NCBI GenBank assembly: GCA_013286805.1
Contig: JABDEY010000005.1
Span: 1-56,603 of the forward strand
Reading direction: 5' to 3'
Origin: Bacteroidota bacterium
GTDB taxonomy: Bacteria > Bacteroidota > Bacteroidia > JABDFU01
Length of the DNA: 56,603 bases
Shown in pieces: positions 41,110-42,656 of the stretch; within the stretch, counting starts at the first letter, position 1; each line of letters opens with the position of its first letter. Position numbers and translations under genes: made by a program. The notes beneath the pieces were generated by a model. The model had not been told where the DNA came from. It saw only the letters and a list, made by a program, of their open reading frames with translations, and did no database searches.

Positions 41110-41125
41110 TGTTTCACGTGGAACA
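41110..41125 (-). promoter_or_regulatory. parS: parS-type ParB-binding site 1
   Basis: TGTTTCACGTGGAACA on the plus strand; its complement TGTTCCACGTGAAACA fits the bacterial chromosomal parS consensus TGTTNCACGTGAAACA at every position. ParB/Spo0J loads and spreads from such sites and they cluster near the replication origin. Finding exact matches in a moderately AT-rich sequence by chance is very unlikely. Confidence 0.85.
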
Positions 41126-41316
41126 TTAAGTCAATAGGATTCACATTTTTCTAAGATCTGATTACAATTTTTTAGTAATTGTACCTGTTTATTTGATGTA
41201 TAAATAGAAAATAAAACATACTTCAATACAACACTGACGCTTAGTACAGCCTGTTTTAAAAGTGGGTATTTGTCCATTTGCGGAACGGAATTTTTAATGT
41301 TACAACACTGGGGAAT

Positions 41317-41434
41317 AAAGCAGAGGAGCATTAAAGGATGGCTTAAGGGCAATTATGCTGCGAAGCAGGGCAATCACTTTGTGGCTGAATATGCCAGTTT
41401 GTGTGAAGGAGTGTAGCGGTGGACTCTGCTTTTT
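41317..41434. repeat. Inverted repeat element between parS sites 1 and 2
   Basis: Arms AAAGCAGAG (41317-41325) and CTCTGCTTT (41424-41432) enclose about 98 bases with an internal CTGC-GAA-GCAG hairpin near 41360. The right arm is part of the word ACTCTGCTTTTT (starting at 41423), which also occurs at the right end of the element at 42490-42656, on the other side of the methyltransferase gene. This shared closing sequence suggests the two are related. Small RNA, terminator or dispersed repeat are all possible. Confidence 0.4.
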
Positions 41435-41455
41435 CCTAGCATTAAAAATATAACC

Positions 41456-42423: not shown

Positions 42424-42439
42424 TGTTTCACGTGGAACA
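42424..42439 (-). promoter_or_regulatory. parS: parS-type ParB-binding site 3
   Basis: TGTTTCACGTGGAACA again, identical to site 1; a perfect consensus match on the minus strand. It begins 8 bases after the stop codon of the methyltransferase gene. With sites 1 and 2 it makes three sites in 1.33 kb. Confidence 0.85.
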
Positions 42440-42489: not shown

Positions 42490-42656
42490 ATAAAAAAAGC
42501 AGACGAGAGGGCGAACAACTTGTGGTTGTTTGAGCCAGACTGTGGGCTGCAAATCGGCTGGCTCGTGGGTTAGCGGCTCAGAGTCTGAGCCCCGATTTAT
42601 TAGCAGCGATGAACGATGCTTTTTTTATTGGCAGCGATGAACTCTGCTTTTTTTTA
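42490..42656 (+). ncRNA. Structured intergenic element; candidate small RNA or repeat
   Basis: A closing stem of 12 perfect pairs joins ATAAAAAAAGCA (42490-42501) with TGCTTTTTTTAT (42617-42628). Inside lie three hairpins in a row: AACAAC/GTTGTT (42514-42519 with 42525-42530), GAGCCAG/CTGGCTC (42532-42538 with 42558-42564), and GGCTCAGA-G-TCTGAGCC (42575-42591). The 3' side is duplicated: GCAGCGATGAAC at 42603-42614 and again at 42631-42642, each followed by a T-run, so the closing stem has two alternative partners. The T8 end near 42655 would suit an intrinsic terminator. It is more GC-rich than its surroundings. I do not recognise a named RNA family. Confidence 0.45.

Follow-up and report, generated by a model that had tools for sequence, protein, structure and literature searches.

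A dispersed, probably REP/BIME-like composite palindrome and its M2 hairpin module in a Bacteroidota genome

Palindromic repeats at gene ends are a known kind of element. Bidirectional intrinsic terminators, made of an A-tract, a hairpin and a T-tract, lie between convergent genes, and Rickettsia palindromic elements (RPEs) are inserted in frame in proteins. As outlined in PMC3733652, RPEs bear a CGTC tag and REP/BIME repeats fall into GTAG- and CGTC-tagged superfamilies; the same source places REPs close to 3' ends, in gaps between ORFs that converge or run in one direction. A terminator or 3'-end role has been proposed for REPs. TnpA-Y1 genes of subclass 2.6 in Bacteroidetes are flanked by hairpins that PMC6006769, in its account of this subclass, terms 'atypical secondary structures'.

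Here we analyse one intergenic block in a 56,603-nt stretch of Bacteroidota DNA (the window). The block is probably a copy of a lineage-specific, dispersed, REP/BIME-like composite palindrome that terminates transcription from both sides or forms an mRNA 3'-end structure, its function and its mobility being what we infer. We call the element a variant among such gene-end repeats and do not file it as a REP, because its tag, its nested modules and its missing RAYT partner depart from REP definitions. The block lies between a methyltransferase gene (PF13489) and a Usp gene (PF00582, matched in two stretches) and ends in a T-run, as the earlier note had read from the letters. Its parts and two neighbours are as follows:

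42490..42656, + strand: the whole composite element, copy E1 (fold, arm pairing, BLASTN and alignment)
42490..42503, + strand: left closing arm, common to both closures (arm pairing)
42505..42545, + strand: M2 hairpin module (GGGCGAACAAC..GTTGTTTGAGCCAG), widespread in Bacteroidota (row G000:C5:42505-42545 of R2, E 2.1e-14; R2 is a covariance model of M2 from eight own-genome seeds, this copy among them)
42551..42557, + strand: left strand of the inner stem, AAATCGG, pairing with 42592-42598 (read from the sequence)
42575..42591, + strand: local palindrome GGCTCAGAGTCTGAGCC (sequence scan)
42592..42598, + strand: right strand of the inner stem, CCGATTT (read from the sequence)
42596..42623, + strand: right arm copy 1, closing part 42617-42628 (arm pairing)
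42624..42651, + strand: right arm copy 2, closing part 42643-42654, then the T-run (arm pairing)
42424..42439, no strand assigned: parS-like 16-mer, which adjoins the element without belonging to it; 5 of 5 same-genus relatives keep it
41311..41438, + strand: E21, a second degenerate family copy in the window (weak BLASTN row), with a degenerate M2 at 41364-41404

The 12-bp closing stem with a duplicated 3' arm, proposed in the earlier note, is borne out. Positions 42490-42501 pair with 42617-42628 and 42492-42503 with 42643-42654, each over 12 nt with 100% complementarity, and the two closures are mutually exclusive because they share one left arm. A direct repeat (42596-42623 and 42624-42651), with a period of 28 and 89% identity, makes up the right arm. 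Minimum free energies are -64.8 kcal/mol on the + strand (z -4.5) and -50.6 kcal/mol on the - strand (z -5.1), and none of 200 dinucleotide shuffles was as stable on either strand. Constrained folds gave -64.8 for the outer closure, -60.3 for the inner closure and -56.1 without a closing stem, such that the outer closure beats the inner by 4.5 kcal/mol and absence of the stem costs 8.7 kcal/mol. Two parts of the fold are stable, namely the M2 hairpin (within 42505-42545) and, at about 42533-42594, a long bulged hairpin that contains the palindrome 42575-42591; the right-arm copies contribute small weak hairpins. The three hairpins in a row that had been described thus hold only in part: inner hairpins exist, but their number varies with the fold. 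The block is indeed GC-richer than its surroundings (47%, against 23% and 33% in the neighbouring spacers). On both strands a stable hairpin is followed directly by a T-run, as in an intrinsic terminator. A simple terminator scan did not select the closing stem because it seeks short GC-rich hairpins only.

We searched the own genome, a 2.3-Mb MAG in 136 contigs that is 56% complete, and found about 20 copies of the composite element, which answers the question of copy number raised in the earlier note. BLASTN with the block returned 34 rows at E≤10, and R1, a covariance model of the element arms built from five own-genome copies, returned 17 rows at E≤5, two elements yielding two rows each. 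E1, whose left arm an extra module interrupts, is absent from the R1 rows; BLASTN (71 bases, 90% to copy E2) and alignment place it in the family. The common plan is an A/T-rich outer stem around an asymmetric internal loop that is conserved among copies (left GTGAAGAGCCTTCAAG, right ATTGGCAGCGATGAAC; half-loops of the family plan, left GCAGCAGTGAAGAGCCTTCAAG, right ATTGGCAGCGATGAACG), followed by an inner stem AAATCG/CGATTT and a middle that varies between copies. Lengths range from about 97 to 241 nt. The counts below refer to 17 two-armed copies and do not include E15, E16, E18 and E20, each of which lacks one arm or has one that can no longer be recognised. Five of these were recruited by weak BLASTN rows (E17, E19 and E21) or by R1 (E8 and E10), and further weak BLASTN rows were kept outside the classification. 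We note that E21 lies upstream of the methyltransferase gene, and two family copies (E21 and E1) therefore flank that gene. E4 and E5, in inverted orientation, flank a short ORF6N-domain gene of 88 aa (G000:C27:16503-17242; L033, L040).

The element appears confined to its own genome. R1 found nothing at E≤0.5 in five other same-genus genomes, and no convincing match beyond the own genome in a 395-genome class sample that included it; four rows elsewhere (G134, G192, G313 and G343) were judged to be chance, three being plain A/T-rich hairpins and one coding-looking (L100). A strict right-arm pattern had no exact match in a named genome collection of 84,980 species (own record possibly not included). 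In Rfam 15, no row rose above the gathering threshold for the window region, 11 family loci or 15 M2 loci, and a known Rfam family was rejected, the weak rows lying far below gathering (for example snoRNA models, and Chlorobi-1 at E 0.046 at L038). Nor did titles and abstract openings of literature on palindromic repeats, REP/RAYT, intergenic repeats, MITEs, terminators and RPE yield a description of these repeats.

Orthologous sites were compared across diverged intergenic DNA in which exact borders cannot be drawn, and within that limit the block is absent from the methyltransferase-Usp gap in 5 of 5 same-genus relatives and from the E2 site in 3 of 3. The mobile palindromic repeat that was one of the earlier readings is supported by this absence, by the dispersed own-genome copies and by the empty search of the five same-genus genomes. 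On the 3' side of clpB, the own genome has copy E9 where two congeners (G002 and G005) have an ordinary terminator-like hairpin, and on the 3' side of smpB it has E10 where the long palindromes of G004, G002 and G005 are different and unrelated ones. The congener palindromes behind smpB show GTTTCAAGTTTGAAA words and GCTAGACTTGCTTTGC (L091 and L092, from G005 and G002; L087, from G004). Each species may own separate gene-end palindromes.

We assessed covariation of the closing stem by placing 14 + 14 arm letters by hand in the 17 two-armed copies and permuting right arms among copies. Watson-Crick pairs filled 192 of 238 cells (permuted mean 161, maximum 180 in 20,000 trials). No permutation of 20,000 attained the observed pairing, a figure that is not a strict probability, as the arms were aligned by hand and the copies share ancestry. 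For the 12 BLASTN-found copies alone, without the five recruited ones, 145 of 168 cells were Watson-Crick (permuted mean 122, maximum 139). One outer-stem position is G-C in six copies, T-A in five and A-T in three, and the unpaired half-loops stay alike among copies while the outer-stem letters differ. This clearly indicates that the letters of the outer stem drift while self-complementarity is retained. This covariation is among own-genome copies; across relatives, where the earlier note had proposed a covariance search, R1 gave no match in the five same-genus genomes.

Such a family could also be the neutral remains of a MITE-like element that no longer has a role, its pairing kept by the youth of the copies alone. 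Several copies have indeed lost an arm, the family is restricted to its lineage, and no transposase was found, as in many debris families. However, the outer-stem letters have changed in many copies that are still paired, for which youth alone is insufficient, and the copies are strongly biased to gene 3' ends. We consider debris unlikely on these grounds. Many degenerate copies were the sign by which the earlier note would have recognised repeat debris; here the copies are many and some are degenerate, yet the closing stem stays paired as its letters change.

The positions of the copies bear on function. In twelve of the 17, a stop codon lies no more than 50 nt from one end of the copy (for E4, the distance is to the 88-aa ORF6N gene). 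Neighbouring genes are convergent in 6 copies and co-directional in 9, with one copy at a contig end (E7) and one possibly divergent (E5, a label that rests on doubtful ORFs); E8 counts as co-directional when an 84-aa HTH gene is included and as divergent otherwise. The setting is therefore convergent or co-directional in 15 of 17, the placement expected of REP/BIME repeats. Among co-directional copies the distance from the upstream stop is uneven (145 nt for E8, 76 for E12, 440 for E21). Copies are oriented both ways relative to genes, and the genes upstream are unrelated to each other.

Measured against REP/BIME repeats as PMC3733652 outlines them, the family is alike in being dispersed intergenic palindromes, most of them close to the 3' ends of genes and with ORFs on either side that converge or run in one direction, in having stems that differ by paired changes, and in assembling into larger units. 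It differs in its length of about 97-241 nt, its conserved internal loop and its exchangeable modules. Like a bidirectional intrinsic terminator, the element has an A-tract, a hairpin and a T-tract and occurs between convergent genes; unlike one, it is much longer, has conserved unpaired segments and belongs to a dispersed sequence family.

Returning to the preferred reading of a REP/BIME-like composite palindrome, we propose that transcription from either side would allow the closing stem and the inner hairpins to form, and that the T-run that follows would make the block a two-way intrinsic terminator or a 3'-end stabiliser. Selection on that role could keep the outer stem paired despite drift of its letters, and copies would have spread by a mobility route. 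The second right arm of E1 may have arisen by local tandem duplication and would offer a spare closure, not a regulated switch. A structured RNA with a terminator, as suggested earlier, is supported indirectly by the covarying closing stem, the T-runs on both strands and the position behind stop codons. If true, a spreading composite palindrome has remodelled gene 3' ends in this lineage, at sites that carry ordinary terminators in some relatives.

The same duplicated arm could instead belong to a cis-regulatory or trans-acting structured RNA that toggles between inner and outer closure and controls read-through into the Usp gene. Although the two perfect, exclusive closures only 4.5 kcal/mol apart, the strong folding of the block and the presence of a duplicated arm in E8 and E14 as well would suit such a switch, 14 of the 17 two-armed copies have no second arm. 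Switching is not a family feature, because the duplicated closing arm occurs in only 3 of 17. Moreover, either closure would terminate, because both run into a T-run; copies stand behind unrelated genes in both orientations; none was found in the five same-genus genomes; and no Rfam match came near its gathering score. We regard the switching part of the earlier note as very improbable, and rejected a riboswitch or switching sRNA, two-arm-closure copies being few and none having been found in relatives.

The block had been labelled by its proximity to a third parS site, and the label is apt: parS-like 16-mers lie at 41110, 41456 and 42424 (three in 1.3 kb), and the third adjoins the block. A link of the element to the parS/ParB region, and hence to chromosome segregation, would account for a perfect parS-like 16-mer 50 nt upstream of E1 and for the end of E21 lying 17 nt before another. 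It is nevertheless scarcely credible, given that the methyltransferase-Usp gap of all five relatives has the parS-like site without the block, and that the majority of copies are on other contigs, behind unrelated genes.

M2 is more novel than the rest of the element. It is a covarying hairpin of about 35 nt with its own tag, and alignment of E1 with E2 shows it as an inserted hairpin in E1, an exchange of modules between copies. It also occurs in E7, E8, E9, E11 and E12, where the part of the element that it replaces is not always the same; further copies lie inside another module (L173) or stand alone (L009, L013 and L024). Four stem pairs are changed on both sides among the eight own copies. 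In the own genome R2 returned 33 full-length rows at E≤1e-3, and other families of the class have copies too; under strict filters, 48 of 395 class genomes had a match at E≤1e-4. The exact M2 pattern with stem columns free matched 63 stretches in the named genome collection; by title, 61 are some kind of Bacteroidota, and the other two are a Chlorobiota contig and a Mycoplasmatota contig. They comprise 25 distinct 30-mers; at the two stem pairs left fully free, 21 and 23 of these are Watson-Crick paired, although the pattern does not demand it. M2 thus fits the REP/BIME description of a 20-40 bp imperfect palindrome in many copies, and it looks like an undescribed mobile palindrome common to many uncultured Bacteroidota; no literature match describing it was found among titles and abstract openings. 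A phage origin was unsupported (0 matches in viral contigs).

The tag of M2 resembles those of REP/BIME repeats in being conserved and unpaired on one side. An A precedes the 5' foot in 101 of 107 instances, and GTG follows GAGCCRG by four to six nt (89-92 of 107 at each position). The tag, GTGYG (CRCAC on the other strand), is neither of the two that PMC3733652 names for REP/BIME: of 107 instances, 4 have GTAG close to the 5' foot and 4 have it close to the 3' foot, and CGTC occurs in 0 of 107. A cognate RAYT/TnpA-REP gene flanked by M2, as in the GTAG type, was not found at 30 Y1 loci or in the own genome. The R2 scan of these 30 best-listed Y1-transposase loci gave one weak partial row and no convincing M2, and the own genome (56% complete) had no Y1 match, leaving none tied to the element family. 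We therefore rejected a classic RAYT-driven REP for M2. As far as PMC6006769 describes the subclass 2.6 hairpins, they are similar in occurring in Bacteroidetes, in not following the GTAG rule and in having further copies across the genome. The hairpins at the Y1 loci we examined, however, are different ones, such as CCCCTTCGGGG and GGTGCAGAGCACC, and neither R1 elements nor M2 (by the R2 scan) were seen beside them.

M2 lies both in palindromes and in genes. Outside the element, 14 of 56 non-redundant places have M2 within a longer palindrome with an outer arm of at least 8 bp, a modest excess over 200 shuffles (mean 4.5, maximum 10). In genome G028, 10 of 25 examined copies lie inside ORFs of at least 100 aa, and at L200, L199, L185, L121 and L103 M2 is inside protein genes, apparently in frame. 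The encoded peptides are RANxxxxFEPA in one direction and GSNxxWxFALL, in signal peptides, in the other. When a GMC oxidoreductase with M2 is aligned with PDB 8rpg, a 12-residue gap in 8rpg falls over M2, the cleanest of the cases examined; with the better-scoring 9lq0 the gap falls just after M2. In a polyprenyl synthetase the alignment with a solved homologue breaks at or near M2, and in an NAD-binding protein there is a 9-residue gap against the second match, the alignment being blurred against the first. M2 is like the RPEs in being both intergenic and inside protein genes, apparently in frame; it differs in having no CGTC tag and in belonging to a different phylum.

From these data we tentatively raise a broader possibility, less secure than our reading of the block itself: M2 might represent a further superfamily of tagged mobile palindromes (GTGYG/CRCAC) across Bacteroidota, moved by a non-Y1 enzyme, that enters palindromes, yielding lineage-specific multi-hairpin elements, and that, as RPEs do, inserts in frame into protein genes. 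M2 offers a compact, searchable signature of a palindrome family without an Rfam 15 match, in intergenic composites and protein genes alike, and makes movement of palindromes without a RAYT partner testable in sequenced Bacteroidota.

Other hosts and modules were observed in passing. Several uncultured Bacteroidota (L223-L285, e.g. L243, L274 and L283) have a CCCTCTCC..GGAGAGGG hairpin, then M2, then GGGGTGAGG, where M2 seems to lie inside another common palindromic repeat. A host repeat for M2 in the own genome is CCCTTCGGGCAGGGC..GGCTAGACTAGGCTTTGC (L163, L168, L170, L171, L172 and L174), with a 3' part similar to the palindrome that G004 has behind smpB. Finally, a third module, a long hairpin GATGCTATTT..AAATAGCATC holding GCAGGCGAACTCGGCC..GGCC..CGCCTGC, is present in E5, E6, E13 and E14 (L040, L039, L043 and L044).
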